Positions 571 through 57,900 of a stretch of DNA of 64,000 nucleotides are shown here, in pieces. The stretch is from Tubiluchus corallicola (Eukaryota > Priapulida > Priapulimorpha > Priapulimorphida > Tubiluchidae): positions 126,001 to 190,000 of the forward strand of contig JAQGDQ010000448.1 in NCBI GenBank assembly GCA_030141605.1, given 5' to 3'. How positions within the stretch are numbered: position 1 is the first letter of the stretch; every line of letters begins with the position of its first letter. A model generated the notes under the pieces. It was given only the letters and a program-made list of their open reading frames with translations. It had not been told where the DNA came from and made no database searches. The translations under genes and the position numbers were made by a program.

Positions 571-3500
571 GATCCACATCGCTTGCATTATGAGCCATGG
601 GAATTACATGTGTTTGAGAATATTGAATGCGAATGGCCATTATTCTTCTGCTACTTACTACTAGACAGTCTTTTCAGGGGCGACAAGGAAATGGTAACGT
701 CAGAAATTTTTAATTCGTTTTTAATTTTTAATGACAAAGACTTCCTCAGTTCATGAATGTCACTACACATCACGTCATTTACCAATTTTATGGGATAAAT
801 TTACAGTGTAATTAAAATCCATATCATTTTGGTGTAACATTAATTTATTATTTGTTCTCAGTATGCCTAGCATTAGTTTCTGTGATAATTTTGAGAAATG
901 TTTAAAAATACCATAGTTCTGCATTCAACATTCAAGGTTCTGATTTCAAGCTTCACTTTGGTCATAAATTAATTTTGTTTTAATACTTCAGGCTGAAGAA
1001 TATTTTGAAGCTTTGGAAGAATTGGTTATTGTATCAGATAGTGGGATGAAATTATTACCTGAGATGTATGCTGTTCCACCAGATAAGGTAAATCGTTTAT
1101 TATAGTTTCACTGTTTTTTTTTTACTTTAAGTTAGATACGATTATTACTAAAGACATTGCTCTGCATTTATTTTCTATTTAGGTGGAAAATGAGAAAAAC
1201 GATCCACATAGTGAGCCCAGGATTGCTGTTGGGAAGATACCGCAAATGTGGGGTCAGTCTTTGTACATAACCAGCTGTCTGTTAAAAGAAGGCTTTATAG
1301 CTGTTGGCGAGATTGACCCCATGAATCGTCGTTTAGTTACAGAAAAAAAACCGGACTTGGTCGTGCAAGGTATGATGCTAGTATTGCCAGAAAAGAAAAA
1401 CGAATTTATTGTAGAGTTGTTTGTTTACTTGTAGAATTTAGATATTTTTTGTGCAGGCAGAGGTAATTCAATTAACATTTTGTGGCCAAAATTAAAAACT
1501 TTGCATAGATGGTGAAACTTGTTTATCCTACAGGTATTTTTTGATGTAATGACAGCTAAAAACCACTAGCTTCTCAGTCTAACAGTTTGCACATGTTTTT
1601 ATTTGTCCATGTGTTTATTTCAGTTGTTATCCTGGCAGAGGATCGGACAATACAAGCAAAATTAAAAGAATACGACTTTGATGTTGACTGTGCGGAGGAC
1701 GTTAAGCCTATTGAAGTCCTTCCAGCGAGGATACTCAGTGAAATATATGCACAACTAGGTGCAGTATTAGTACTGTGTACTATATTTTAGTGCTGTAGAC
1801 TATTATATATAATATGCTATGAATATACTATGTATATTATATAACATGTATAATATATGTATATTATTTTGTATTAGGTGCAGTATTATTTATCTGTATC
1901 ATTATTTAAGGTTTATAAATTGCTCATTCCATTAGGACAGTGAAACATTAGCTAAGTAACTGTATCAATGTTGGTCACAGATATTTTTAAAAGCTTATTT
2001 CATTTGCTCTAGGTAAAAATAAAAAGCTTGGTTTATCTGGTCGTCCATCACATGATGTAGGATTGCTGAGTACTAGTAAACTCTATATGTTAAAAGATAG
2101 GATATTTGCGTTTACTCCTCAGGTAAGGAATCATATGTATGTAGTTGTAATAAAATTGAAGTATAGTATAATTCTATATGTATATGACTGTGTTTAGGGC
2201 AGTGTAGTAACAGAGATACCCACACTACAGGCAATTAGTAGTGATGTAACTGTAGTCTGTTCGTAACTAAATTTGGGTCATTGATATGTTTAATGAGTTG
2301 TATACACCAATTTGTTTCATGTAATACTAACTACTTAAGTTACAGGGGCACTTGTTAAAAATATAAAAAAATACTGAGTTGAGTTTTAATGATAAAAGGT
2401 AATTAATCCCTGATCTATCCTTGTAACAAATGGCCAGCAATTAAGTTACTTATTAAATACCAGTTGATAGAGTGATACATACCTAAGATATAGCCTTGTT
2501 TTTAGAAGTAGGCCTCATTTAAAAATTGTGGCCTTTGTTTCACATGCACTTTTTTGTAGCGTGTGAATATCTTATGGTGAGAACAACAAGTTTGTTGAGG
2601 ACAACATGTTTGTTATGGGCATTTGAAAGCATACCCCTTTATAGTACATGAATAAGTTAATACAAGAAAAGAAACTAAGAAGTAATGTTGAGCACTTTGC
2701 AGTTAAAACACAGAAAACTACATAAATGCAGTTAGTTTTCATAAAGCTCAAAAACATTGCTAATAGGTTTCTCTAGGTGTTTTTACGGTACTTTTTTTAA
2801 GTCGTGCATTAGCACCTGTTAAGAGGGATATTTTAGTATTGCTAGGTACCAAAATGGTTTTGAGCTACAGATCTTATCTGATGCTAATTTGGGAACATGA
2901 ATATGTATTTTTTATATTGCATGAGAGTTAATTTATTTCTAGTACTTTGATCGCAGTAAATTCTACATATCTAGCGATGTCCTTCTGCTGCTGGACATGC
3001 TTCGAACTGACCTTTGGTACTTAAAGAGCTCGTGGCGGCAGCTCGGTCGACCACTTGTCCTTATACCACTTACCAAAATCATGCTAGGTGTGTTTTTTAT
3101 CCTGAACTTTTTTCATTATAGTTGTCGATACAATGCAATGCAGTTTTAGTAACTGGGTTGACCACTACTAACTGTCTTACTTTTGCAGTGTGTTAGCTAA
3201 TCTGTAGATACTGGTAAGGCATGAACTCATAAGCAATTACACAGTTATATTACACCTTTGTGTGTGCCTTTTTTAAAACCGCACAAATTTATTACTCTGA
3301 ATTTACTTTTCACTACAAACGAATCTTAGATTTCACGTACCCTTCATCGAGATAATAGCATTACATTTGCAACATACAGCTTAGACTTCACCTTGTACTA
3401 CACTGTGACATTGTTTTGCTTTTAGTTTTCAGATCCGCATGAATTCTATTTGGCTGCTGACACTAACTTACTGCTTAACATGTTTCATACTGACATAGCA

Positions 3501-6500
3501 TTTTTGAAAACATCCTGGAGGCAGTTAGGTCGACCCACTGTCACAATTATTCTGCATAAGCACATGTGGGGAGATATAGGTAAGAATGACCCACCTTAGT
3601 AATGCTGTTACACTTATTTACTTTTTTAATCATAACATTATATTTTCATAATTTGAATTATTCGTGATTTTGACATGAATATTCACATAAGCTGGCAATG
3701 TAGCTTATTTTAAGAAGTGTGTAGTAAAAATCACTAATACAGTTTAGTTTTGATTTTTTTGTATATCCACTCTGCTAATCAAATCTTCTCACGTGGTTTG
3801 GTCTGTTTTTGTGCATTACTACTAATTTCTAAACTAACTTTTGATGTGCTGTTGAGTTTTGTAAAAAAAAAAACTGATTCAAACATGGTTTAATGTTTCA
3901 GCCTAAATGTTTTGCATACCTCCGTTACCTAACAGTTTCAACTTATTAAACAGTTTACTATTTAGGCAGTTTGCTACTTTGAATTGTTTGCAAGGATTAC
4001 ACAGGATTTTCTTAAATTATCAGAAATGTGATCTGTTTCATCCACTTAAAAATATGATAGTTTTACAAGCAAATCTTTTGAAACATTGCTAAATATTAAG
4101 TTTTCTTACTTTTGTGAATATGAACAGTGCAACATTTTTGCTACATGCATATTAATAGCGTAAGTTTTTCTTTAGATTCCAAGAAGAGTTTGCCACCAGC
4201 CGTCATAGCTACAATTAAAAAGCTCAAAAGTGGTTATACAACGGGAGCTAGGTAAAATTCCTGTTGGCTTTGACTGTTGTACAAAAATAGATTAATTTTG
4301 TGTTGATTATATTTTATTATGTTGTATTAATAGATTAAATAGATTATCACACAAATAAGTACCCTATATGAGCATCATTAACATAATTGTGCCAGGTTCT
4401 GTCTGATAAACTTGAAAATATCGATGCTGTTTTTTAAGCAATGCTTAACACTAGAAAGACTGAATGTGCCAGTTGACCCATTTTTTTGCTTATATCTCTG
4501 AAGGATATGTTTGTATTTATTTATTACTTTTACTAGTTTAGTGCTAACTACTATTGTACAGAATTTCAGGACGGAAACGTTACTTTAACCTTGTTAAAAA
4601 TAGGGTACTGCCTAGATGGACCAGACAATTGACGCTGATACATATTGTACACTGTAAATTAATACAATGTACAGACATCACAGTAGTAAATGTGAATGTA
4701 AGTATGTGAATATACATAAGTGAATGTAAGTTAGCAAACTCTTTTAACATCTTACTACGAACTTCTTTGACTGACAACTCTTATGCAGGGGCGTATCAAG
4801 AGTTTACGATGCCCTGGGTTGATACTTCTGTCCCACCCATCTCAATTGTGAATTTATGGTTTTTTATTGAGCAAATTAAACAATTACTTGTGTATTAAAA
4901 AAACTCTTTACTTAGTTTCTACGTGGTCACTATTAATTACATGTATTTATACAGCTTTATCTTTAAGCAGGCTGCGCAACTGCTTGTTGTAAAAGCTGCA
5001 CTCAGTAACCGCCTGTGGTGTGTTATATACTGTACCATTTACGTGAATATGATACTTTTCCAACGAGAAAAAGAATTGTTTCTACAATGTGACGCCCTCA
5101 AACTTTGGCGCCCTAGGCTGTAGCCTAGTTAATCTATTAGTTAATGCTGTCATGGCTTGACTCAATATAGGTTCTCAAAGCATCTCAAAATCTACCATTA
5201 GATGAGTCATTATACTTGTATGTATAAATTGCTTCAATTTTTATATGGATTAATTTTCTGATGTATCGTTGAATTTTACTAAAATCTGACTGGTAAATAC
5301 CAGTTTTATTTTTGTGTAGGAATGAAATCTGTGATTGCGTCAGTTGATACATGCCTGTCCAAAGTAGTGAACTTTTCTGGTCATTTTAATGTTAACTTTA
5401 TTTAGTTTATATATAGTGCAATAATAATGGATTGTCATTAAGTAGTACTGTTGTAGTCCTGCTGCTGAGTATGATTTTATATGCATTTTGAAATTTAGGT
5501 TAATAATAATTTATATACGTACTTAAGGTAAAAATTTCTTATTAATCAGCATCAAACATTTTTTATCTTTCCTTTAGTAAGGATGATTGTAAAATGCATA
5601 CAAGATCCCAATAAAAAAGCTGGTAGTGTTTCATATGGTGGATCGTGATACAGGAATATAATGATTTATGTATTTCAATAGCAGTATTTACTGCCATATC
5701 CTTTCCATTACATTTGCCTTCTTACACCACATAAATTTTAAGTAACTATAGATCATGTTCGTATCTCACCTTTGCTGAACTCATCCGTGACCATTTATAA
5801 CTCGAAATATTGTTTTCTATTTTTTAGAGTGGAACTTGGTAAACTAACCGACTTTCTCAGCACATCGTGTGTTACACATTTGAATTTTCTTGCAAACACA
5901 GAATCCGGTGATGTAGAAGGTAATGCACTGATGAATATCTTCTCCTTCATTTAGCATCTCATATTTGTTTCCCGATGTTGTTTCCGTGTATTTATAATAA
6001 CTCGACACTGAACTTAGATAGTTTTTTTGACCTAATTATGTAATTTCTTTATGTAACCTGCATTACTTTGATGATTAAACAAGTGTTTCCAATTGGATAA
6101 TATGATGTCACCTTTACTTATGTAAAGCATGTAGTTTCCTTTTTCTCACTGGTTTAAGTATCTAGTTCTTGGTTTCTTTGAAACGGGCAACATGTTATTA
6201 ACAATGTAAAGAATTTTTTTATTATCTTGCTATAGGTACAGATGCATGTGTCTTGGATTTGCTTGACAAACTTACAAAACCTGAGCGGCATCTTCGTTCT
6301 CGGTTGCCTTCACACCAGGGCCGCAGACGAGCCCCATTTCGCCGTGAGTCATCAGTTCGTGGTATTGTGAAACGCACTAAGTCTATAGCAATAGACCCAG
6401 ATGATTCAGGTAAGTATTTATTTTAACTGTACTTTGTTAACTTAGCATGAATTATTTTATTCTCAGTTATAGCTGCTGCTGCTGTACCAAATCACTTGCT

Positions 6501-15500: not shown

Positions 15501-18500
15501 ATTGTTGCTAATAACAAGTGTTTGTGTTTATAGGTGAGAAAGCTACAGAAGATCTACTGAATTTGAGTCCATTTGAGTTGAAGACACTGCTGCATCACAT
15601 TCTTAGTGGCAAAGAATTACGAGTACACGTAGATGTTGGTACGTATTACTACATTGCCTTTTATATTTAAAACGTTTGATACATTTATGGAAATTGCAAT
15701 CTAAGACCTGGGGCTATAAACGTTTTTAGCTCACTCTTACAAATTTAAATATAATCTTCGTTTATTAATTTTACAAAGTGTGTTACACTTGCTGTAAACA
15801 GATATAGTTTCAGGCAAACAAATAAAATTCAAGTTGGATGCATTTGTACAAAATCTAAATTTTAGTAAATTACTTAGTGTAAGTGCTTATGACTGCAGCC
15901 TGATTTAACTGACTGTTATTTCACTGCATTGATTGCTGTGTAGAAGCAAATCCCGACGGTGATCAGATGACAGTGAAAGAGTGTGCTAAAGCAGAAGATT
16001 TGGGCATGACGCAAGTTGCAGAGGAAATTAAGGTCCAATATAATTAACACTGTGTGTTGTATTTTGTTTGCTGACGAAATTAACTAGATGTTTAGTCAGT
16101 AGTTTGCTGTGATATAAAATAGCTGCTTTGTTGGTTTTTACATGCAGTTGGAAATCACTAACAATGCTTGATAGAGCCATTTTCTTCCAACTTACAGTAG
16201 ATTCTAACTAGAAAGCAACTAGTAGTTGCTAAGTACAATGTATTTAGACTGCTGTAAGTGAAAGAAAATGGCTGTGGAGAAAGAAAAACAACTTATATTA
16301 CACAATATTATTATCAATACTCTATGTACTGTTCTTGCTTTGGTTTGCATCATAGATTTAAATGTCAGGCATGTGCAGATTGAGATTGCTAGACTTCTGC
16401 GAAAAAGTGAGGCAACAATGAGCACAATTCTACAGCCTGTTGTTTGGGAAGAAATGGGTGCCATGTTGTACAATAAACAGTCTGCATTTGACTGTATGGC
16501 AGAGACAACTCTTGAGCAATACACTTTTGAAATATTGTTTCATATGCCGGCTTAGCAATGTCTCTTTACATGTGCATGGCCTTTAAATTAGTGGCTTTAA
16601 GTATTGTTGCCTTTTGTATGTGTTGTTTTTACATGTTGCACTGTAGTTAATTATTTTAGATACTTACGTTGCTTGATGTAGCTGATGTCGTTATTTCTGC
16701 TTGTTTGCATGGTTATCTCATTCTTTGTTTGTTTAATGCTTGTTTGATTATTTGCATTTGATTAGTATCTGGACGAGATACAATTACAGACCGTGATCAT
16801 ACTATAGAGGAGATAATATTGCATCAGGTATGTAGATACCTATACGTGAAAAATGCATTCAAACCTTTTCTAATGTGGCATGACAGATCCTAGTGTATAC
16901 TGAAAGAATATTACTATAGATGCCGAATTTGGCCTGTTAAGTGTTTAATTTTGCTGGAATTTAATTTCTCGCATATTTTGTAGGCTGTGACTTTGTATGT
17001 AGGCCTACTGCACCCAAATGCATACTCAGAAAGTATTGTCTTCATGCTTTTGATTGCAATTTAAATTGTTTCTTTTGATAAATAAATGACTTCTTTTGAT
17101 AAATAAATGGCAGCTCAAATATCAGTACTTCATGATTAAGCGGTAAAGCTACAACATCTCTGGACATTCAGTGAAATTTCATCTTACCATGAGGTAGCAA
17201 ATGCAAGCAATTAATTACATCAACGAAGTTGTTTGCCATCATCTAGCTATTTATTATAAATAGTAGAGCAAATATATTCTCAGCAGATTTCCGTTAGTTT
17301 AGTCGATACTTTATAAATAGCTAATACAGTTTGTGAAATTTTGTGAAAGATATTGCCATTAAAACAATTGCTAAGTGCACAGTTGTAAGTAAGGACTTAC
17401 TGTACTGATTAGTACAGAATTCTGTGAGTAATAACAGTCTTAATTTGGGTATGATTCATGCCAGGGTCTTGGTTTATCACAAATCTCCCAGTTTGCAAAT
17501 TGCCAAACGGCATATAAAATCTCTGTATTAAATTGCGACAAAACAACTTAACAAATTGTTTGAACTGATATAATTAGATGGCTTCATGTCAATTTCATGC
17601 AAGTTTTTAAAATAAGAATTATTTGAATCTGTATCCAACTTTTGTTGTGACTGCTAAAAATCTAAATTTTTAGCTGTGTACATCACTACAGTCATCAAAC
17701 AGTACACTTTTATTTGTCTTGTACAGAATGGAAAATAAAAAAATGAATTCCAATTGAAATTAAATACATTTGTACTACCATTTCTTCCTTTTTGGTATTG
17801 ATTGCTACTGACTGCTTCCTTCCTCCACTAATCATGCATTTTAAACTTTATGCTCCTATGATCACAACAGGATTTGTAATTGCCTTTTTTAGAGTAGTAG
17901 CTATAGCACATGTTTTTCTTATTCTAGCATGCGCTGATTGTTAATATGGTAATGTCTTTTGTGTTACAGTCTAACTAGTAACTTTACATTACTTCTGTAA
18001 TAAGGTAATATGAGATGCAAGTTTATTCGAGAAAATTGTATTTAATAAGTATTAGAAACGTACTAAAAGAGTTCTTAGTTTAACAGTGTACTGATTGCAA
18101 TACTTAGATTAAGTGATCTTTGTCATAAGAAAATTATTGCTCTGCTCTACTGTAGAGAAACATATCAAAGTAGCCAATCTTTTACTAGCTATATCCAGTC
18201 GATCACTCAGAATATCGGTTTGTTAACAACTTAAGTCGATCAATCATAATAATTATTTGTTTTCAACTTAAGTTAGTGCTTAATATTTATTCTTTACTAA
18301 TAGTGGCTTATTAGATGTAAAAAAATGTATTATTCTCCATCACAGTTTTCACATCGAGACTCATTAGCGTCCGCTATTGAAGGAGGAAAATCTGTAAGAT
18401 CAGGCAACGGCTTTGCAGATGATGTGTCCAGACAGGGACAGTGGCTGCGGAGACGTCGCTTAGATGGCGCTCTGAACAGAGTACCAGTAGATTTCTATCC

Positions 18501-20698
18501 AAAGCTTTGGAATGTTCTAGAAAAGGTATTGTTTGGAATACCCGCATATTTTCTTCCGATCTTTCTCATTACTTTGTTTTTAATAATCGTTGCCAGTAGA
18601 TACTTTAATTGTTTTTTTAATCTATTTCTATTTGTATCTTGCAGTGTCATGGATTGTCTATACATGGTCATGTTTTACCACAAAGTTTAACCAGAGAGGT
18701 AAGTTTTCATGGGTGCTGTCAGGTAGAACTGTTGTATAACTGTCATAACTGGTAAATGTGCGCTTCATATTATTGTCTAGCAGGTTTTTGCACCTTTGCT
18801 CATTATGCCTTTTTGTTCATTCTAGATGACACCTGGTGAAACAAAATTTGCTTTGCAAGTTGAGGCGGTGCTAAATCGGATCCCACAACCTGAATATCGC
18901 CAGTTAATGGTCGAAGCACTCATGGTGCTCACCCTCGTGGTGGAAACAGACAAGAAATGCAACCTGGGTGGAATAATTCATGTGGAACATCTTGTTGCAG
19001 AAGCCAATAGATTATTTCTCATGGATCAGGTAGGGAAATCAGATAACATTAACTTTTTAACTTTTCAAAATTGTTAATGTTAAAATGTTTTTTTTTAATT
19101 TTGCTGCAAATTTATGCATGTGTTACTCAAAAGAGGACACAATCTCATGTCCATTTGCACATGACATGTTCTTTTCTAGTAAAGATTCCCATGCCTTAAG
19201 GGTAGAAAGGTAGAAGTTTTTACTTATGCATTTCGTAATAATTCTTGTACAACAGTTTTTACTGAATCTGGTGTAAGAGTTTTCCTGTAATTGCATTGTA
19301 TAAATTGTAGTGCACATAATGCATAGTGCATCATTCGAACAGCATTGAAATTTTTCCGATTCACACTGTGAAACAATATTTGTAATTATTTCGGTGACTT
19401 TCCACTTTTGCCAAATGCAAAACACTAACACTCGGCCACTAGAAATGGGCTGCAATGGGAATGAAGCTGCCTGTTTCTATTCTCTTTTGTGTTTAAATGG
19501 TTGTCTGTCTGCTATAAGGCTAAGCAGCTGTCATTGGACCTCTCGTACATCATTTACTTTTTTATAATATTAATTAAAACTCACTGGGGTGTGTAAATAA
19601 AAAAGTAAACAAATGCTAATTATGTTTATAGTACCTGTTAACTAGTACTAACTATGTGTTCTTGTTGTGGACAAATGGCCTATATTAGGCCTTGGAGGCC
19701 AAATTAAGATGTAATATATATAACTCGCCAATAAAAACATGCCTTCTGACAATATTCTTTTTACAATTTTCTGTGTGTATATTTAGTGCAGCTTTTACCA
19801 ATACAGCAAAATAGTCAAAGATATGACATAAGCTTGGTGGAAAATGGAAACGGTGCACAGTAACATTTCTTGTATATTTATGCACATTGTGAATTACTCC
19901 CCCCCTTTTCCAGCATTCACATGACCAAGAAATATTTTCTGTGGCTGAGGGTTAAACCCAAATTATAATAAAAAAATTTTGGTCAGATAAGATTGAAAAG
20001 ATCAGCATTCTCAAATGCTTGTATACTAAGAGTGGAAGTTTGCTGCAGTTTTGCAGTTTTTCTCAAATTTTAAGGAAAGACAATGGCTTCAGTTAATTTT
20101 TGTAACTAAGAATGATTCAAAGTGTGCTGATATGCTGTTGCACATACTTGCATAGGTCATGATGAGCTTATAGGAATAGTCAATACAGTTTATGAATCAT
20201 GCATTATTTTCACGCCATGTTATACATGTCAGACAATAAGCACACATCGACGACAAGACTCCATTTTTAGAAAATATACTTAACACATCTTTTCAAGACA
20301 TTTACAGACTTGCTAATTCTGTCACCCGCTATTTTCAATGTAAATAGTTGGTAATTTTTTTACAAATTGCATTTTAAATTTATGACATGGAAATTCTCAA
20401 AATCTGTAAAGCTCTGTGCCAAAGGTTGCAATAATTGCTGATTGTATTCATATTATTACTGTTTTAGTCTCGAGTTGGTGGTGATGCTACACTGTGTTGC
20501 GCTGGTGCCGCAGCTCCCATTGCTGTTCCGGGGAAAGTACCTGTTCTAAAATGTGGAGGAAAGGCTGGGGTTTGCCAATTATTCTACGACAGCGCTCCTA
20601 GTGGCAGGTTTGGAACTATGACGTACTTGTGCAAGGCCGTGGCACAGCTACTTAATATTTTCCCAGCAACTGGAGATTTGGAATGTGTGATTAGCTAG
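571..20698 (+). CDS. PHKA: Phosphorylase b kinase regulatory subunit alpha (5' end outside window)
   Basis: The alpha subunit regulates the hexadecameric kinase that activates glycogen phosphorylase. Exons read from conserved sequence and GT-AG sites: 571-693, 992-1087, 1183-1369, 1624-1758, 2013-2122, 2943-3087 or 3426-3579, 4176-4251, 5828-5919, 6236-6409, 7027-7077, 8113-8145, 10599-10825, 11368-11492, 11922-12000, 12748-12825, 13682-13840, 13984-14113, 15534-15638, 15944-16032 or 16766-16827, 18346-18525, 18645-18698, 18826-19029, 20468-20698. One from each pair gives 960 residues in frame. Vertebrate alpha subunits are about 1235 residues, so roughly the first quarter (most of the glucoamylase-like domain) is missing to the left. 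Landmarks typical of the family are [69 protein letters not shown] and [14 protein letters not shown]. The beta subunit is the alternative, but the C-terminal match and CaaX box favour alpha. Exon boundaries are predictions without RNA support. Confidence 0.95.
2943..3087 (+). other. PHKA: PHKA alternative exon, copy A of a duplicated pair
   Basis: 145 bp, entered in phase 0 from the exon ending at 2122 and left in phase 1. It encodes 48 residues beginning [12 protein letters not shown] and containing SSWRQLGRP. The vertebrate equivalent is the segment starting FYLALDN and containing SRWRMTGQP. Joined to the exon at 4176 it reads in frame ([10 protein letters not shown]). Confidence 0.88.
3426..3579 (+). 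other. PHKA: PHKA alternative exon, copy B of a duplicated pair
   Basis: 154 bp, entered in phase 0 with the acceptor AG at 3424-3425 and left in phase 1, exactly like copy A. It encodes [12 protein letters not shown] through TSWRQLGRP to MWGDI. About 25 of 48 aligned residues match copy A without gaps, and copy B carries three extra residues at the end. A second acceptor AG sits at 3431-3432. That one would put the exon in phase 1, so it could only follow copy A. Copy B spliced from 2122 via the second acceptor runs into a stop. Confidence 0.85.
4788..5125. mobile_element. hAT-like element remnant in PHKA intron
   Basis: Starts CAGGGGCGTATCAAGAG, typical of hAT-like terminal repeats. Toward its right side it has GACGCCCTC and GGCGCCCTAGGC, of the kind found at the opposite ends of such elements. 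No clean target duplication was found, so the right boundary is approximate. No transposase frame is present. Confidence 0.4.
6236..6409 (+). other. PHKA: PHKA phase 1-1 exon with basic, PKA-type sites
   Basis: 174 bp (58 codons), entered and left in phase 1, so it can be skipped without shifting the frame. It encodes a strongly basic stretch with [10 protein letters not shown] and KRTKSIAI, both containing Arg/Lys-x-x-Ser-like sites. This is the region where vertebrate alpha subunits carry poorly conserved regulatory sequence. The acceptor is TATAG|GT and the donor CAG|GTAAG. Confidence 0.7.
7027..7077 (+). other. PHKA: PHKA small phase 1-1 cassette exon (51 bp)
   Basis: A 51-bp open segment between TAACAG and AG|GTTAG, encoding [18 protein letters not shown]. 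It keeps the phase 1 to phase 1 pattern of its neighbours. Support comes only from splice sites, frame and position in the gene, since the sequence is not conserved in families I know. Confidence 0.5.
8113..8145 (+). other. PHKA: PHKA micro-exon candidate (33 bp)
   Basis: 33 bp between TTATAG and AG|GTTAG, phase 1 to phase 1, encoding [11 protein letters not shown]. It fits the chain of in-frame cassettes here, but it is short enough to be a chance arrangement. Confidence 0.4.
10599..10825 (+). other. PHKA: PHKA linker exon with acidic tract and RRQS site
   Basis: 227 bp, phase 1 to phase 0, encoding a serine- and proline-rich, probably disordered linker with an acidic DDDDK stretch and a PKA-type site [11 protein letters not shown]. 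It leads into the conserved helical segment starting at 11368. The linker itself is not conserved with vertebrate PHKA. Confidence 0.75.
13881..13957. repeat. Two-copy 40-bp tandem duplication in PHKA intron
   Basis: ACTGTTTAGAATTTTTCTTC begins one copy at 13881 and another at 13921, with nearly identical 37-bp cores. It sits just upstream of the exon at 13984, within the acceptor-side part of the intron. Confidence 0.8.
15944..16032 (+). other. PHKA: PHKA alternative exon (second pair, version 1)
   Basis: 89 bp, phase 1 to phase 0, following the [10 protein letters not shown] exon. It encodes 30 residues ending MTQVAEEIK, which resembles the vertebrate alpha segment ending MQLKSEIK. It then joins the exon at 18346 that leads to [14 protein letters not shown]. 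The donor is AAG|GTCCAA, an unusual form. Confidence 0.7.
16766..16827 (+). other. PHKA: PHKA alternative exon candidate (second pair, version 2)
   Basis: 62 bp with acceptor GATTAG and strong donor CAG|GTATGT. It is open only when entered in phase 1, and it leaves in phase 0, exactly as the 15944-16032 exon does. It encodes [20 protein letters not shown]. If spliced after 16032 it would be read in phase 0 and meet a TAG, so it could replace that exon but not follow it. No clear similarity between the two versions is visible. Confidence 0.5.
20684..20698 (+). other. PHKA: C-terminal CaaX prenylation motif (CVIS) and stop of PHKA
   Basis: The last codons read Glu-Cys-Val-Ile-Ser-stop. Cys-aliphatic-aliphatic-Ser is a classic farnesyl-transferase recognition motif. 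Vertebrate alpha subunits are known to be farnesylated at a C-terminal Cys-x-x-Gln motif, so the modification, though not the exact residues, appears conserved. Confidence 0.85.
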
Positions 20699-25102: not shown

Positions 25103-25302
25103 CTGCATTCAAAATTTTCACATTTACTGTTTTTCAAGTTTGATATGTATTAAAATTTAATTAATTGGGCGGTTTGTTTCGTCATTTCATCGTAGATTTT
25201 TATATTCACTGATCTCAATATCTGCAAAAGCTATTTGTTACCTTTTAGAAATTAACGATGGTGCTACTGGTCACCTTGAGATAAAAGCTTAACATTGTAA
25301 AT

Positions 25303-26574
25303 ATGCATAGAGGAGTGACAATACCAGCATCCCCAGTGTCACCAGCTGAGCTCATCGACCGTACAAGATCTGACATTAAACTCGTTAACCGTCTTCAGTC
25401 ACCCGTGACAGATTACTTTGATGACGAAGATAGTGATGATGATTACGAACCAGAGTACAGACAAATAGAACAGATGCATTTGGACTATGACTGTGATACT
25501 TTTAAACCGATAGTTGACACTAAAGATGCCACTGACAATCCTTTTGTAAAAATGTGCCTGATTGCCTACAGCCAACACCGGCCCATTGCAATTACACCCG
25601 ACTTATTATGGCATTATATTCGCAATGCAGTTGCCATACATGTAAATAAAAACTCTGAGGCATTACGCAGTGTATTTGTCAAACACAAAAGGAAAACTGT
25701 ATTAAATGTTCATCGAAAGGATTTTGTGAGATGTCAAAACAACAACTGGCCAAGTGTGTTTCAGGAATTTAGGCAACTGATTGAATTAAATTTGAAAGAA
25801 AGTGCAAAACCACTGATATGTGAACGGTTCAGCACGACATCGAAGACGTTATACGACATTTCATGTATTGCCTTGATGGACGTTATGCAGTCATATTTTG
25901 ACTATACCCTGTGTACAGAATGTGGAATACCAAGTGTGAGTTTGTTAGGCAAGTTGGATGACTGGAAAAAATTAAACAAAGTTACAGAAGATTTGTTAAA
26001 TATGTTTCAAGGCATGCCTAAAGGAACAGACCTGGAGTGGTGGAGATGTGGATTAAAGCCAGTTCTTGAAAAGCTTGTTCACTGTTACCAAAATCCGGAA
26101 GACCATTCATTACAGGATTGGATGGCAAGAATTTTCAAATATAATAAAGAGGCTGGATCTGGCGCTGTTGCTTATGTTACAGGCTGGATAAACGTGTTTT
26201 TTCCGTATATAGGCAGCGGTGAAAAGGAACAGAATCCTCTTGCACAAGTTTCCTCATATCCTAAACTAGAAAGGCATATTGGGAAAGCAGTTGGTGGAAT
26301 ATCTCACTTTTATGAACCAAACGACACACCTTCGATGTGGCAGGACGAGTATTTTGCTTGTCATTTTAAGAAAATCGAGCTGAAAGACTTTGCAATGGGT
26401 CTTTCTCAAGCTCCATTCATATGGATACATCACGGTCAAACATTGAAAATGGACTTTCTAGGTGGACCCTGTTGCATTACAGAACAAGTGAGAGAGGAAG
26501 GATCAGCAGCACCACTAGGTTCTTTACATGTTCAGTCAGGTTGGGCAGTTGCATACAGTGACCCAAAGAAATAA
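25303..26574 (+). CDS. DUF4419-family protein, single exon
   Basis: A 423-residue open frame from ATG to TAA without introns. The N-terminus VTIPASPVSPAELIDRT, an acidic tract (FDDEDSDDDYEPEY, about residues 39-53), and the core motifs FVKMCLIAYSQHRPIAITPD, LWHYIRNAVAIHVNKN, FSTTSKT, CGIPSVSLLGKLDDW and GWINVFFPYIG are those of DUF4419. This family has no known function and occurs mainly in fungi and invertebrates. No catalytic motif is evident, and there is no signal peptide or membrane segment. The start is the first ATG of the frame and sits just before the family's conserved N-terminus, so the protein looks complete. Base composition is less AT-biased than the flanks. The lack of introns contrasts with the neighbouring PHKA and FAM149 genes, so retroposition or lateral entry are possibilities, though many genomes encode DUF4419 in few exons. 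Confidence 0.9.
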   Translation: MHRGVTIPASPVSPAELIDRTRSDIKLVNRLQSPVTDYFDDEDSDDDYEPEYRQIEQMHLDYDCDTFKPIVDTKDATDNPFVKMCLIAYSQHRPIAITPDLLWHYIRNAVAIHVNKNSEALRSVFVKHKRKTVLNVHRKDFVRCQNNNWPSVFQEFRQLIELNLKESAKPLICERFSTTSKTLYDISCIALMDVMQSYFDYTLCTECGIPSVSLLGKLDDWKKLNKVTEDLLNMFQGMPKGTDLEWWRCGLKPVLEKLVHCYQNPEDHSLQDWMARIFKYNKEAGSGAVAYVTGWINVFFPYIGSGEKEQNPLAQVSSYPKLERHIGKAVGGISHFYEPNDTPSMWQDEYFACHFKKIELKDFAMGLSQAPFIWIHHGQTLKMDFLGGPCCITEQVREEGSAAPLGSLHVQSGWAVAYSDPKK

Positions 26575-28435: not shown

Positions 28436-29946
28436 GTTTGCAGCACAACTGATTCGTCATTTCACAGGCATATAGCATGCATAGCAGTTACCTAAACACT
28501 GTTGTTAGGTCATACACTACGTGTCGAGGAGTATCATGGCAAAACTCACATATAATAATTATAGCAACTAATACTAAGTTAACATGATTATAGCAACTAA
28601 GTTAACACGTCAGCAGACTATGAAAGGACTGCATACAACAAAATGTTTTCAGTAGCCCTTTAACAACTGTGCAAGAACTGAACTTGTGTAATGTTGTGCC
28701 CAAACTGAGTTGCAAATATAATATAAACATGAGCAAATGGCTAGGTGTTAGCAGTTAAATGCAGATTCAACAGATAATAAGCTCTTTCTTTGAATGCCCA
28801 CATTAATGCACATCATGGCATGTTAGTTTCAACAAATTTGGTTAAGCTATAATGTATTTAAGCATTAATGATGATTGTTTTTTAAAATTCTCCTCAGTGC
28901 AACTACCAACCATGCACTAGCCTTTGGTTACATAGAAAGAAACCAGTGGCAGCAGGCTGATGGATAAAAGTTGTTTACAGATGAAAATGTTCTGCAATGG
29001 AACTTAATTGCCTCACTTGGCATATCTTTCTAGTGGCATTCAGTGGAAGATCCATTGTAAATGGTGAAGACCACTTTTCTAGTAGATGGCAACTGCTGGG
29101 CAATCCGCATTTCAACCTAGTTGTCACGTGATTTATTAGGTATTCAACTGGATTCTCGAACATGCAAGCCCTCCAGGCAGTGCCGCAAGTTGCTGATTCT
29201 TGGTACAATTTAAATTTACAGAAGGAGAGCATTTCTGAGTACTGTCTCGGAAAGTCTTCATCAGATTAATGAACCTGTAAATAATCCTATCCTGGTAGAT
29301 GTTCGGAGATGCAGTGACACTTGAGGCCATACAATAAACGGAAAATTTTGTATGGCCAACACTTGTAACAGGTATAGTGGATTCTAAAGTGTTGTTTGAA
29401 GAATAACCTTGACATAAATGTCAGTTTACACAATTCACATACCCAAAGTTGAGCTGCAAAGAAAAAAGAAGCAGATTAGCAAATGTTCAATGAGAAAAAC
29501 TCAATGATAATATCAATGATCACTAAGCAACCAGATTTGCCTTAACAAGCCAAAGTTTAGATTGTAACAATATTAGAAGCAAATATGCTACAAGTTGAAA
29601 TTTCACAGTGTGGCGTTACAGTAAATTAGCTTTAGGCTGCAGAAAGTTACGGGTTTATAGCTTTAATGGTTGTTAATACTATAGTCGAAAAGCTCTAGCA
29701 TGTCAGTTAATCATCAATTTAAAAACAGCCATGTTGGTGCCTAATAGATGGCAGCAAAATAAGAAAGAAATCACTTGATGGCAGTTTACATCACAGTTTT
29801 CACCACAGAAGATGAAGTACTGATAAAATTTATCAAGAAAAAACTGGTAAAACACAAATTTATAAAGACTTCCCCAGCAAAAGAGTAATACAAGGCTCAT
29901 GTGAATGGAATAATAAAAATAGTATGAAATAATAGCAAGACCTTTT

Positions 29947-35716: not shown

Positions 35717-37458
35717 ATGGCTAGTTTCTGTAACTAAGGTGCAAACTTATTGCATAGTGTACTTTTGTAAAAGATATTGCTCCTTTTATATTGTTGCTAT
35801 TTGCTATAAATAAACATAAGCAAACAAACTGTTTGCGAGCAATAACAGAAACGCTTCAGGCAATGTCAAATCAAATCAATTAATGAATTATTCTTTATCT
35901 CAGTGCATAACATTAATTAAAATTAAGCATGATTTATAGCTAATCAAATAGGAAGAAGTGGCGAAAAATATACGTTATCGAGTCAGCCACCTCAGCTCAG
36001 TTCTATTTATAAATATTTCGCATGCAGTGCGGATGATCGCTGTTCAAATTTAATAATGTTGAATTAAGTACTTGTTTTCACCTATGTAACATCAAGCATG
36101 TATATGATAACAATGATGACACAGTCGTGAGAATCATGTAAAATCAGGAAAGATTTAGAAAATGAAAAATTGAACTAAGTTGACTTTCCCAACTGTCGAT
36201 TATTGGTGATCCTTATATGTTATTAATGAAAACAATGAAAGTAACAAAAACGGACCATTGTATTGCATGTGACTACATTTATCCTCTAGTGTTTTACTTT
36301 ATTTTTAGGTTCAATGCGATTAGTACACTTTTTAAATATATTTCAAGTCCAACAGTTTTTAGTTTTCATGAACTTTAAATCGTGTAAAATATAGCAAGAT
36401 ACCATGAGAACAATAATCACTTGTTTACAGCTACTATGTTGATATACCTTTTGTAAAAATTGCATTATTTGAAGCCTAATAACTAGTCTCAAGCCATTAG
36501 CTGTTAATCCCTGACTATAATGTTTTCAAGTAATGATAAAGAAATTTTATCAACCTGATGTTTCTGTTATGATTTAACGCTGACTCCCGAAATCATTGAT
36601 GAAAATCACCTGTATGGAAACTAGCCCAGCAGTTTCAGTTTTTGAATCGCATGTACTGTATTCGCAATTAACTTTATGTCTCTAAGATTTTAATCACTGT
36701 ATTATATAAAGTTTTTGTCTTGTGAACTCAATGGAGATGATGTGAATGGACGCTGATAACATGCAAGATCAATCTGTAACTGATACTGAACGTTATTGAA
36801 AGTACTGATAGCGAAAGATCAATTTCGGTGTCTCATTTTTAACAACAACAAAGAAAGTGGTGTTCCTAATTATCATATAATAGTATTGTGACGTACACGT
36901 ATGTCATCATGACATCATAGAAAAAAACTTCTGGAGCACTTTTTTGTCAGTCGGTAATATATATGGTATTAGAGGCTAGATGGTTTTAAAGATGTAACTG
37001 ATTTTTAATTCCAGTAGGCGCAGTCTTGGATTTATGCGTATATCTCAAATACTAATCTCGATTTTAACCAATTAATATATCAGGTTGCCTGAATACTAAC
37101 AGAATATGAAAGAGAAAAAATTCTATTACAGTTTGTTCTAGGTACCTCCCTACTATCAACTATCTTTACCCACCTGTATAATTTATTAACTTATATACTT
37201 TATATAAATTTTGTGGCATGACTGGCTTGAAATTTCCTGCATCAAGGCTAGTAAAGGTCACGTGAAATAATATCTGACTTGCACTTTTTAATATTGAAAA
37301 TTTAGGTCCAATCAGTTATAAATGACTTTTGATTTAAGCTTAAACATTGGCACAAAAATTTGCTTATCACCTAAAAATTATGTGAATGCTGAGCTTTTCT
37401 TATTTAGGTGTGAATGGAATTTTGAAAGTTTTTGACTGTGAATAAATTTCCTTGTGTG

Positions 37459-38040
37459 ATGACTTCTAATATTGAAGAAGTGGCAAGACAGTTAGTTCAG
37501 AAGATATTGAGTAGAGCAACAGAATTATTTGTTTTGGAAAATGAAAAGCAAATTGCTGAAGCTGAAAGCCTTTGTAGCAAAGCTTTAATCAATCTCGATG
37601 CACTTCTTCGATGGGAGAATGTAGTACGGGAAAATGATTTCGTTGTCCCAAACATTGATTGGCCTTCAGTTAAAAGCTTTAATGCCAAAATTGGTGAAGA
37701 AAAGATCGAAGATTTTATGAAGACATGGAATTTGAATGATAAGTGGCTCCACTTTACTGAATTTTTACGCATGGAGGCACATGCTTACAGTGACCACTAC
37801 ATGTACAGAGTCACCTGGAGCATTCCAACACAGGTGGAGCCAATTCCTCGTGTTACAGCTGCCGTTTATTTTACTCTGGAGGTGCCATTTCATAAGTCGG
37901 ACGATAACTTAATTAATGTGTACTACGTTTTTGAAAATAATCACCTCATTCACCGGCCAGGTTATTCCAGATTTCGAGAAAAGTGGTTGTCAGACATTCT
38001 GCAAAGCAAATTAATCTTGATTAAACGGTTGAAATTTTAA
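37459..38040 (+). CDS. AKAP14: AKAP14-like 28-kDa A-kinase anchor protein
   Basis: A 193-residue intronless frame, close to the 197 residues of human AKAP14. Residues 5-26 (IEEVARQLVQKILSRATELF) form an amphipathic helix with the spacing of a PKA RII-binding helix and lie where AKAP14 has its own. The C-terminal half carries the family pattern: YRVTWSIPTQ, PRVTAAVYFTLEV, VYYVFEN and HRPGYSRFREKWL (about 165-177). Vertebrate AKAP14 anchors PKA to the ciliary axoneme. I chose the ATG at 37459; the frame is open nine codons further upstream but has no ATG there. An acceptor-like TATTTAG at 37401-37407 suggests a 5' UTR intron. A polyA signal lies 80 nt past the stop. Overall similarity to human is modest, so a related AKAP28-domain protein is possible. 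Confidence 0.8.
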   Translation: MTSNIEEVARQLVQKILSRATELFVLENEKQIAEAESLCSKALINLDALLRWENVVRENDFVVPNIDWPSVKSFNAKIGEEKIEDFMKTWNLNDKWLHFTEFLRMEAHAYSDHYMYRVTWSIPTQVEPIPRVTAAVYFTLEVPFHKSDDNLINVYYVFENNHLIHRPGYSRFREKWLSDILQSKLILIKRLKF

Positions 38041-53195: not shown

Positions 53196-54933
53196 TTATT
53201 TATACTTCCCTATCACAAAACCTGTATGATCTTATTTTTGTGTATACGTGCGTCTGTCTCTAATTCAGTAATAGCTGTTTTATCTGTGTAAAATTACAAC
53301 TTCCAGAAAACGGGTAATTCGATCAGAGATAAATTACAATTGGCTTGTGTTTTGTAAAAATATGCGAAAAAATTCTTTTTAATGCTTTCAGTGCAATCTT
53401 CCCCCTCTCTTTGCCTTTCCTCTCTGTTTCTCCCGCACCTATTATTCTTTTCATTCTCCTGCTCTCTAATTTCCCCTGTCCCATTTTCTTTGGCCATATC
53501 TCTTTGCTTTTACTTATCTTTCAGTAACAGTCGGCCACGTAGCGAGAAATCATACTAAAGGTCGCAATTTTTGAAAGGTTTTTGGTATTGCTTATTATAT
53601 TTTTTGTTATTGTGTGGCGTAGTGGGTAGTGGTAAATTGGCTGTGAGCTTTCATAATTATTTTAATTGGAGGTAAAAATGGCGATTATTTGTAGAAGTAC
53701 TTGCGTTTAAAGCAATGTGTAATTAGCAATTTATGTTATAAAGCGCACTATAAGTGAAAAAAGCATGATTTGATAAAATTAAATTCACGTTGGATTGCTC
53801 GCAGTGCCTATACGTATAATTAAATTAAATTATTTTTAAAATAACCACGATCATGACATTTTATATATCGCAGTTAAAAGCAAAATATAAATTATTCAGA
53901 TACTGTATTGTAACTTACGTGAGAAGTTTGCTTAGTTTAGTTTAGTTTTATTTAGTTTATTTTTCCAAAATGTCATAATAATTAATATGTAAATTGTTAC
54001 ACTACATTACAATACATTAGAAAACACACTTTTCCTACAACAAACAAAGGAAAATTAAAAAATTTGCAGGATGTTCAGATATTGGCTCAGGCTAAGAAGG
54101 TAAACTTGTAAATACCTTTGCACTTCTTGCCTTGTACTCAATGGCATGTTGTGCCTCGCTGTGTACCACTGTCTTGCCATATACTGCCTTGTGGTACATT
54201 GCACTGCGGTAAATAGCAAATTTTTTTGTAGCATCATGGTACATGGTGAGAGAATACAAGGAGAGACAGTATGTGGCAATACCATGTAGTAACACTAATA
54301 TTCGTACTATTACTTAAGATGAAGTAAAATTAATTTCCATCAGATATTAATTATAAGTAATTATTAGTTGTCAATAGATAGACAATTAACAGATATGCTT
54401 GTAAAACAATTGACACCCATGAAGGTAACGTTAAGATGTTTAGGTAATAGTTGTCACAAAATTGATGGAGCACTCATGTGCAGTGAAAATTGCCTGTGAT
54501 TCAACCATGCTGACTCAGGATTTGCCACATTGCTTGAAAAGGCATCAGTATCAGTCTGGGTATTTCAGTCAGCTAGATTGGTTTTTAGTGGTACAGTATA
54601 GATTTGCTAGCTCCTGTTATGGCAACATCTGTATTTTTGTGACTTGTTGGCGCTAAATCTCCGCTTGCAGCTCTGTCCTTATAAATTAAATCATTTGGTG
54701 GTGTTGCACAATTTATCTTAAATATTGCTATCAAGAATCCAAAGTTGTCTCTCTCTTTCTCTCCAGATGTCTTTGTCTCTCTCTCTTTCTGTCTCTCTCT
54801 CACTCTCTTTTGCTCCATCTATATGTTTGATGTATCATTTAGTGCAAAATTGATAAAGTTTTGAATATTTAGCATCACAAATTTGTGTGTTTTTTGTAGT
54901 TTAATAAACAACACCATCTGTTAGAGGAATGCC

Positions 54934-57900
54934 ATGCCGCCTCCAGATAGGCCACTTCAGGCTAAAGAAGCGGCTTTTGTATACAATTTTACAGAGAATT
55001 CTAAAAAAGGAAGTAGCAATGAATTAAAGAATGGGCTTATGAATGGTAAAAATGAACTGGATGCATTGAAAGAGAGTGTGGCACCCAAAAGTGGACACAA
55101 GAATTATGTTGGCGCTGAGATACCGCATCATGATCCACATAGAGTTTTGCCCTTAGATTTAAATATGTGTAGTAATAATGAGATGTGCTCAGACTGTTGT
55201 ACAGAGCACGAGACTTGCGATGAACTACCTGTCGCTTTTAGGACTGTTGCTGACATTGAACAACGAGCTGATGTATGCAGTGATATAGATGATGATGAGC
55301 AACGTTTTAGTACTGGGCCTCAAACGTGGTCTGATGGTAATCAATTTAACAGGCAAAATGGTGTCTCTGTTGTGACAAATGGTATAGGTAATCACGACAT
55401 CATTAGTGATACTGTGGATAGTCTCAAGTCTAGTACATGTGGTAAGAATGAACCTTGGCGAGATAAGTGGATACTTGAATGTATTGATCACATGAACGCT
55501 TATTTGCTTAGCCAACAGGAGAGAGATGAAAGCCTAGCAAATGAAGTGAGCAAAGAAGAAGCTGAGAAGCATAGCAACCCATCCGTAGATGGTATGAATG
55601 AATATCTTCGTAACAATCGCCATCTTATTGCTGATGGTGATGCAGATTCTGATATCAGTAGTGCTAATGAGGAAGTGCCAGTAATATCTACTCATGTCCG
55701 CAAAGCGTCATCTGACCACTCTCCTGATTTTTTAGAGTTTGATTTTCAGGCTGCAGATGATGAAGAGCGCATTGATGCTGGTTGTGTTTCTGATGATGAA
55801 GGTTTGTTTGATTCTGATTTTGTAGAGACTTCGGTAAACCATGCATTTACCGAGCATGGTGATGAGGTTGATGATAAAGACATTCTACTTCAAAAACTGC
55901 ATGACTGTGATAACCATGATCGTGTTTTTTCTGATAAATCTGAAGGGATTAGTGCATCCAGTAAGATAAAGTGTACATCCTGTGGTGATACGTGTTGTTA
56001 TTCGTGTTGTGGTGAAGACTTAAAGGATGATGTAGTACTTTCTAAGTGCTGCGGTCAGCAGTCGTGTTCCGATCATGACTGTATAAAAAGCACTGTATGT
56101 TGTAATTCTAGTATTTGTCACAAAGGGGGTGATGCTTTTACTCTGTCTCCTTTGCAAGTGCCTTTATGTTCCAATCATTCTCCACTTCGTTGTGTTATTG
56201 TGAAAAGTCATAGTTTTGACGACGAGAGTGCAGTTACATCCACATTTGCACATGAGTTGCATAATGGCAAGAATGAAATCAAAAACACAACAGTTTCACA
56301 AAAGAAGCCCGATGAACTTCGAACACATTTTCGCTTGTATCCTATTAAGAGTCGTAGTTTCGACGAAGGAATGTTACTTAGAAACTTTAAGTTATCATTT
56401 CGCGGCGACTCTGGGCAAGAAAAAGAACATATTTATGAAGAACTTGATTCATATCTGAAGGAAGAGGAGGAGGATGAAGACTATGTAAGTCTTCAAGGTC
56501 CTGTGAAAAATGTCATGTTGTGGAGCGAAAGTGAAGCTTATGCTTTACAAGTGAATCAGATTGGAAAGTCATCATGTGGTGCAACAGCAGTAATTAATGT
56601 TCTTGTAAGTACCAAGAATTTTTACTATGCCATTATATTAGTATGAATATTATACAAACTTACAACAAGTGCATAGGTGCTAGACAGTTTGGTTTGTAGT
56701 TAAGTAAGTACTAAGTACATAGTAAGTTAGTACATTGTCATAGCTTAGAAGATTGATGCTGTGGATTTGTGTTTCTCATTCAAATTTCATTCTTGTACCT
56801 ATAAGATATTATTGTTAAAGCCTTCTTTATTTAAGACGGTATCAGAATTAATTTATTTACTAAAAAATTACAGAGAGTTCTTGGTTTTGATGTTTTGCCT
56901 GAGATTGCTGCAGCAGCTGTACATACTAACATGAGGGCAGAATTGTCACCTGTTCCAGAATATTTGTACTCACGTTCAGTTGCAGGTATGCTATTCTTTT
57001 GTGATATTTTAAAACAGTAACAATCATTATATGCATTTTAAGTACAGCTGCCAAAATAACTTTTTGGTAAGTTCTGTGAAGTAAAATTTGCGAAAAATAC
57101 TGAAATACTATAATCTACTTAAAATGGCAACCAAAGAAGCTAAACTTCTACTCAAGGCCGATTGTACAGAACCAAATTAGAATTATGAAAAAAGTACCAA
57201 CAATAAAGTTTTCATGAACACATTTTATTTACACTAAATTACACAAAGGAAAACATTTCAAAATCAGCTAATTTCATCAGAAATAAATGACTAAAATTTT
57301 GATGAAAAACAGTTTTTTAATTTTTCATACTGAAATCCAAATCAGAAAATCATTATTGTTATTAAACAAATCCAGTAATTTTAACGTTTTTCAAAAAAAA
57401 TCTGCTTTTTAATAAAATAGTTTAATAAATTTATGATTTGAACATTTCCAGTTGCAGTTTAAATAAATATAGTAATACTATGTCCAACAGATCCAATAAT
57501 TTTAAAAAGACATTGATCACCAAAAAGATTTTTGGTTATCCTGAATGTCAATTAATCTTCTGTGAAGAGTGAGACTTTATGTTCACAAATTCTAGTACAG
57601 TCAAACCTCCTTATGCTGCCCACTTTGGGACTCCATAAAAGTTGGTGTTAAGCGAGTTTGACATTATAACGAGGCCCATTAATACATACATGTCTATGCA
57701 ATATACAGTCATATACATGTCATATATAGGTATATGAAAAGGTATATATTTTTGCCAACATAGGACACATTGCAGTTTCCGCATGTAAATTTATATGCAT
57801 AAGTACTACACTAGATTTGAGAAATAGGGGAATATTGTTCTTAAATATAAAAAAATTGATAAATGGAGTGAGCAAGTGAGTGTTATGCAATTTGATTTGT

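Follow-up and report, generated by a model that had tools for sequence, protein, structure and literature searches.

A probable mutually exclusive exon pair swapping one segment of the phosphorylase kinase alpha subunit in the priapulid Tubiluchus corallicola

Results

The PHKA Gene

The window analyzed is a 64,000-nt stretch of the Tubiluchus corallicola genome (assembly GCA_030141605.1, contig JAQGDQ010000448.1, positions 126,001–190,000, forward strand). The part of a phosphorylase kinase alpha subunit gene (PHKA) that lies inside it extends from 571 to 20697 on the + strand; the 5′ exons, where the N-terminal glucoamylase-like domain with its two catalytic Glu would be expected, are upstream, and the coding capacity of the window is limited to later portions of the protein. 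Alpha is the largest regulatory subunit of phosphorylase kinase, which activates the breakdown of glycogen. The exon model is open throughout and gives a product of 951 or 963 residues. Its best protein match is PHKA of Priapulus (71% over 100% of the query), which bears out the identification made in an earlier note on this DNA. A 198-amino acid piece of the product scores 121 bits against human alpha and 53 against human beta. Judged by these sequence comparisons, the gene is PHKA and not PHKB. The 3′ end of the model codes for ...ECVIS-stop, a CaaX-like C terminus of the kind described for human alpha (PMC10978961). The motif is found in the beta subunit as well and does not discriminate between the two.

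Toward the 3′ end, candidate exon c1 (15944–16032, + strand) is entered in phase 1, left in phase 0, and open in the model; it may mark a second alternative site, and it compares with Priapulus at 56%, flank included. Candidate exon c2 (16766–16827, + strand) has the same phases and is also open in the model. On its own, c2 gave no convincing match to the fetched PHKA proteins (best E 3.8) and is unsupported elsewhere.

A Tandem Exon Pair

Two homologous exons lie between a constant exon at 2013–2122 (+ strand, phase 0, ending ...FAFTPQ) and the next constant exon at 4176–4251 (+ strand). Exon A (2943–3087, + strand) is 145 nt long and ends ...LTKIML; exon B (3426–3579, + strand) is 154 nt long and ends ...HKHMWGDI. 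Each is bounded by an AG acceptor and a GT donor, is entered in phase 0, and is left in phase 1. A gap-free protein alignment of the two shows 25 identities in 48 residues, and they represent versions of one segment of ~48 residues. The earlier note had described the pair in these terms, and its coordinates, identity, and phases were all confirmed. Chance similarity was rejected on the strength of profile matches (see below) and a shuffle control, in which exon A matched 2000 shuffles of the Priapulus B segment at 3.7 positions on average and never at more than 13. The two exons are 55% identical in nucleotides, which led us to reject a recent duplicate or an assembly duplicate as well.

Transcript models with A alone or B alone are open across the following exons, as had been proposed, and a model with neither exon runs into a stop. 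Being tandem, homologous, equal in phase, and in frame singly, A and B show the layout expected of a mutually exclusive exon cluster. Splicing A to B through the acceptor at 3426 reproduces the predicted premature stop (...IMLVFRSA-stop). The earlier note had gone further and credited the reading frame with enforcing the either/or choice, a claim that fails. An AG at 3431–3432, seven bases downstream, defines an alternative form of exon B (3433–3579, + strand) that is out of frame alone and in frame after A, and the resulting A+B model is open. Frame alone, therefore, does not forbid double inclusion.

Five profiles of the segment, built without priapulid rows, were run against the 1471 stop-to-stop frames of at least 25 amino acids in the window, and all five ranked the A and B copies on top. 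The 58-row profile (all rows) placed B at 3.5e-23, A at 2.3e-20, and the next frame at 0.33. Across all five, the best further frame was 28985–29128, which reached 0.036 on a profile drawn from nine other animals. There is no strong third match in the window, so a third copy is not apparent. The introns around A and B are linked by no direct repeats beyond 20-nt, 75% matches, which likewise weighs against a recent or assembly duplicate.

Docking/selector RNA pairing of the Dscam type (PMC6071210) is one possible enforcer of either/or choice. In this one genome, intron complementarity is at the level of shuffled sequence: the best helices in the flanking introns were equaled by 15, 5, and 7 of 30 shuffles, and intron duplexes gave z values of −0.05, −0.96, and 0.31 against 40 shuffles each.

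Exon B matches Priapulus caudatus P0003 at 46 of 51 residues. P0003, which represents a cluster with four further members, is the sole Priapulus protein seen, and it carries form B. A protein search with exon A plus short flanks returned 58 candidates and no relative of A at E 1e-3, a weak test with so short a query. Both observations would suit a pair in which one exon, likeliest A, is a decaying duplicate with little or no use, as would the long branch of exon A in the trees described below (0.64–0.71), for which B, with its close sister row, is not a fair comparison. We nevertheless consider such decay highly improbable: the splice sites and frame of A are intact, its profile score is near that of B (68.8 versus 77.8 bits), and it retains D, W, and GRP at positions where a 31-protein alignment shows no variation.

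The Segment Is Swapped in Other Protostomes

Annotated PHKA isoforms of related animals exchange the same segment. In 10 arthropod species the isoforms are 99.9%–100% identical outside it, and only 16–23 of 50 residues (32%–46%) are identical inside it; we refer to the upstream-type arthropod version as a and to the other as b. Given this near-identity elsewhere, we rejected the idea that the isoforms of these 10 species come from a pair of paralogous genes. The proteins of Tachypleus, at 89% identity outside the segment, do look like paralogues; those of Mytilus edulis are 98.4% identical there. The survey covered 24 hand-listed species with at least two proteins each, a subset of the species in our tables, with Crassostrea gigas records counted under Magallana gigas. 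Both a and b occur in 10 of 16 arthropods, two to four versions in 4 of 7 molluscs, and one version in the single hemichordate. The remaining six arthropods and three molluscs show no two clean alternative versions, possibly because the listed isoforms are lacking. Oysters have four versions of the segment and Biomphalaria has two.

The borders of the swap in these relatives are close to those of A and B. All 10 equal-length isoform pairs examined (seven arthropod, three mollusc) differ over 46–48 residues, beginning directly, or one residue, past the ...PQ that closes the upstream exon. Contigs labeled "lgn," of 3.9–5.0 kb, yield three a-type and six b-type proteins; since the full-length frame fills 73%–93% of each, we take these contigs to be spliced mRNA. 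Isoforms that swap the segment are already present in public protein databases as annotations. To judge from these sequences, the swap extends to insects, spiders, snails, and oysters, and the pair is not peculiar to the Tubiluchus genome.

Nephila P0008 and Lycorma P0011, both annotated arthropod proteins, include the two versions together, with a ahead of b, the order of A and B here. Together with the in-frame junction at 3433, they raise the prospect of an addable cassette, with transcripts holding A, B, or A+B. The two proteins may, however, be model errors. Clean either/or isoforms, almost identical elsewhere, in the 10 arthropods speak against routine addition, as does the absence of double segments among those extracted from further proteins (P0137 gave no segment), and we regard the cassette as quite improbable. 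Our preferred reading, to which the annotated isoforms lend support, is that A and B are mutually exclusive exons that exchange one stretch of ~48 residues in PHKA, with a probability of about 0.85.

Relationships of the Copies

For a 38-row tree we selected rows from a list of 120 proteins and added the human segment; a/b labels were assigned by eye before the tree was built. Of P0011, a fused protein, we kept the a part alone, and we excluded P0008 as well as P0119, which is truncated. P0113 lost one residue so that it would match the column layout, and rows with longer tails were shortened to 49 columns. In this tree, A groups with arthropod a (83/87) and B with b (94/88), although the Homarus b row falls among the outgroups and B/b is hence not one clade. 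In a 61-row tree, from which the long-branch rows Homarus b and P0113 were dropped, window A falls with eight a rows from crustaceans and insects (95/82), and B/b is a single clade (94/85). Arthropod profiles agree for A, which scores 61.7 bits on a and 48.4 on b; B scores 66.2 and 68.9 bits, nearly equal and not decisive. At the six columns that separate arthropod a from b, window A is a-like at four and b-like at two; the corresponding counts for window B are three and two, with one neither. The trees and the profile scores of A suggest orthology of A with a and of B with b, an assignment that the column states, among other points, leave soft.

The same data leave some room for independent duplications, in which priapulids, arthropods, and molluscs each doubled the same exon and the present pair is lineage specific, merely resembling that of arthropods. 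A single clade of window A, window B, and Priapulus B is compatible with the data (p-AU 0.206 on the 38-row tree, 0.44 in a further test), and in both trees window A has its highest identity, 52%, with Priapulus B. By pairwise score, a-type rows of spiders and mites are closer to window B than to window A (e.g., 117 to A, 149 to B), and spider forms of both types are nearer window B. The four oyster versions imply that the exon multiplied within molluscs too. Against this stand the best trees, the preference of A for the a profile, and the a-before-b order shared by the arthropod doubles and the window, and we judge separate origins to be unlikely, if a serious contender. The duplication most likely predates the priapulid–arthropod split, on the evidence of these comparisons, with protostomes having duplicated the site more than once. 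The earlier note had proposed seeking the pair in relatives and building a tree of both copies; the swap was found in arthropods and molluscs, exon A is absent from Priapulus P0003, and a clade of priapulid rows only also fits.

Position in the Enzyme

The segment aligns with human alpha residues 524–~571. The constant exon at 4176–4251 encodes KKLKSGY, which aligns with human residues 587–593, and the segment thus sits directly ahead of Lys588 and Tyr593. Both residues contact gamma in the human enzyme, and domain D2, which contains Tyr593, takes part in the alpha1/beta2 contact, one of two alpha/beta contacts (PMC10978961). Because Tyr593 is in D2, we infer that the segment falls within this domain; the source text gives no domain borders. 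Two isoforms from Megachile, P0050 and P0032, were modeled with AlphaFold; mean pLDDT values are 54.2 and 54.7, and both models are poor in the segment, with values below 50 over most of it.

Discussion

Mutually exclusive exons are best known from channels, muscle proteins, and adhesion molecules. In the cluster described here, we propose that T. corallicola would make both mRNAs, that the choice between A and B would be set by tissue or stage, and that the swap would change the grip of alpha on gamma, the catalytic subunit, and/or on a neighboring beta subunit. The last step is suggested by the position of the segment immediately ahead of the gamma-contact residues and by the part that D2 takes in an alpha/beta contact of the human enzyme. 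Tuning of holoenzyme contacts is the most likely role of the cluster, as far as its position allows one to predict.

In vertebrates, alpha differs between tissues through the PHKA1 and PHKA2 paralogues and through splicing elsewhere in alpha. The outcome there is tissue diversity of alpha, as may be true here, but two genes provide it. The earlier note's statement that vertebrate PHKA has a single version of the segment holds for the one solved human alpha, the sole vertebrate checked. In the Drosophila phosphorylase kinase gamma gene, mutually exclusive exons are annotated that are dissimilar in length and sequence (PMC3228551); the enzyme complex is the same, but the exons described here are homologous and belong to another subunit. 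A close parallel is with tandem duplicated exon substitutions (PMC9741552, PMC5740500), which also involve neighboring homologous exons, leave the proteins otherwise identical, and are often old. The host here differs in being a kinase regulatory subunit, and oysters have four versions. In the main texts of those two papers, as available, PHKA, PHKB, and phosphorylase have zero occurrences. No description of the A/B pair was found in the main text of the openly accessible papers searched, including the available text of PMC3228551, PMC3303723, PMC6071210, PMC8864734, PMC10888101, PMC11911633, PMC9741552, PMC3923563, PMC5740500, PMC7954323, and PMC10978961. The earlier note's remark that it knew of none is uncontradicted, apart from the annotated isoforms in protein databases.

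A broader reading makes this PHKA exon an ancient protostome swap point, with a duplication around the origin of Ecdysozoa or before it and an expansion in oysters to four versions; through it, a single gene would build holoenzymes with different alpha–gamma or alpha–beta contacts and so do the job of the separate muscle and liver alpha genes of vertebrates. We offer this tentatively, at less than even odds.

Among regulatory kinases, phosphorylase kinase is a classic. More than 80% of its mass lies in the large regulatory subunits (PMC10978961). A single alpha segment that is swapped as the rest stays constant marks a surface that may set enzyme behavior, and isoforms that differ by only about 48 residues offer a ready experiment in tractable insects. 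A metabolic enzyme would thereby gain an old, repeatedly expanded exon cluster, an apparently unstudied route by which one gene may give rise to different enzyme forms.

A Pair of Homologous Exons in the PHKA Gene

A phosphorylase kinase alpha (PHKA) gene lies with its 3' part on the plus strand of the window, from an exon at 571 to the stop at 20697, and the exon model is open from end to end. The best protein match is the PHKA of Priapulus caudatus, with 71% identity across the whole query. Exons A (2943–3087, plus strand) and B (3426–3579, plus strand) have the same phases (0 at entry, 1 at exit), and each encodes a version of the same segment of about 48 residues. The two share 25 of 48 residues; when A was compared with the Priapulus B segment shuffled 2000 times, the mean was 3.7 matching positions and the maximum 13. 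Five segment profiles, built without priapulid rows, were run on 1471 frames of the window and ranked both exons at the top. The profile of all 58 rows gave 3.5e-23 for B, 2.3e-20 for A and 0.33 for the next frame (best other frame over all five profiles, 0.036). Window B matches the Priapulus segment at 46 of 51 positions, compared with the 71% identity of the protein as a whole.

The pair was proposed in an earlier note, and it is real; the frame is open with A alone and likewise with B alone. Skipping both exons leads to a stop, and joining A to B through the acceptor at 3426 gives, as that note had claimed, a stop after VFRSA. Its further claim, that the frame enforces either/or use, is not supported. 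Exon B has a second AG acceptor at 3433, seven bases beyond 3426, which breaks the frame when B is used alone; the junction from A to 3433, which the note had listed for testing, yields an open, in-frame double. Either/or use is thus favored by the frame, yet unenforced. A and B most likely belong to a known kind of system, mutually exclusive homologous exons.

The introns around the pair measure 820, 338 and 596 bases, judged from the exon borders; with introns of these sizes, A and B are unlikely to exclude each other by simple steric hindrance. Competing intron pairings were sought around the two exons, and none was stronger than in shuffles. Complementary runs at 2199–2248, 3396–3406 and 3812–3827 link the intron before A with both sides of B; shuffles gave equally strong runs. 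The simplest view may be that wrong forms decay and trans-acting regulators choose the exon.

Candidate exons c1 (15944–16032; 56% resemblance to Priapulus, flank included) and c2 (16766–16827) lie between 15638 and 18346, both entered in phase 1 and left in phase 0, as a possible second alternative site in the gene. No convincing relative of c2 was found among the fetched PHKA proteins. The exon model encodes 951 residues with A and c2, and 963 with B and c1. Elsewhere in the window, open frames lie at 25285–26574 (429 residues; DUF4419 domain, 9.3e-67), 37426–38040 (AKAP28 domain, 8.2e-44) and 54925–56646 (573 residues; a Pfam search gave no match).

The Segment Swap in Other Animals

Among 120 PHKA homologues listed, insects and spiders carry the segment in two kinds (a-type and b-type). 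Isoform pairs from ten species (Megachile, Odontomachus, Vespula vulgaris, Vespa velutina, Athalia, Colias, Wasmannia, Ooceraea, Stegodyphus dumicola and Araneus) are 99.9–100% identical outside a 50-residue stretch and match at only 16–23 of 50 positions within it. In 10 of 10 equal-length pairs examined, three of them molluscan, the differing stretch is 46–48 residues long and starts immediately behind, or one residue further than that from, ...PQ, the end of the upstream exon in the window. A search with six spiralian proteins (best 120 listed) revealed the swap in molluscs as well. Among the matches listed, Crassostrea angulata (13 proteins) and Magallana gigas (23) each have four segment versions, and Biomphalaria (16) and Mytilus edulis (2) each have two, the Mytilus pair being only 98.4% identical outside the segment.

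A survey of 24 hand-listed species (16 arthropods, 7 molluscs and Ptychodera) found both kinds in 10 of the arthropods, one kind in five (Tachypleus among these), and an a-type plus a fused a+b form in Nephila; four of the seven molluscs have more than one version, and Ptychodera has one. Both a and b occur in short contigs labeled 'lgn', which we read as spliced transcripts because the full-length coding frame fills 72–99% of the 20 examined. Two Tachypleus proteins (P0015 and P0022), both b-type, are 89% identical outside the segment and come from contigs of unequal size; they appear to be paralogues rather than isoforms.

History of the Duplication

In a tree of 38 rows and 49 columns, window A grouped with crustacean and insect a-type rows (83/87) and window B plus Priapulus with b-type rows (94/88), the Homarus b row falling among the outgroups; every fork of the segment trees is limited by few columns and long branches. 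A second tree (61 rows) left out Homarus b and the PHKA protein P0113. There, B/b formed a single clade (94/85), A/a was one side of a branch (68/81), and window A joined eight a rows (95/82). A mollusc type (Haliotis, Lottia, Argopecten, Lymnaea, one oyster and one Biomphalaria version) was sister to the ecdysozoan rows (89/74), and other mollusc versions grouped with brachiopod, nemertean and human rows. On these positions, the first duplication would be older than the arthropod–priapulid split and perhaps older than the protostome radiation, a dating that falls short of proof. Forcing window A, window B and Priapulus B together cost 5.37 and 3.47 log units (p-AU 0.206 and 0.44) and was not rejected, nor was forcing together all 25 's' rows (p 0.306). 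By simple pairwise scores, spider and mite a-type rows are closer to window B than to window A.

Possible Function

The segment aligns with human alpha 524 to about 571, and the next constant exon holds the equivalents of human Lys588 and Tyr593. In a human cryo-EM study (PMC10978961), gamma is contacted by Lys588 and by Tyr593, a residue assigned to D2, and this domain participates in the alpha1/beta2 contact. Judged from its neighborhood, the swapped segment is probably part of D2. Since the segment immediately precedes the gamma contact, its exchange could change how gamma docks, the autoinhibition, or the contact between alpha and beta; two AlphaFold models were too poor over the segment to judge contacts of its exchanged residues with gamma or beta.

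The literature searched gave no description of this swap point in PHKA or, as the earlier note had supposed, of the pair itself. The value of the finding lies in the recurrent use of one swap point in protostome PHKA, more than in the single genome described here.
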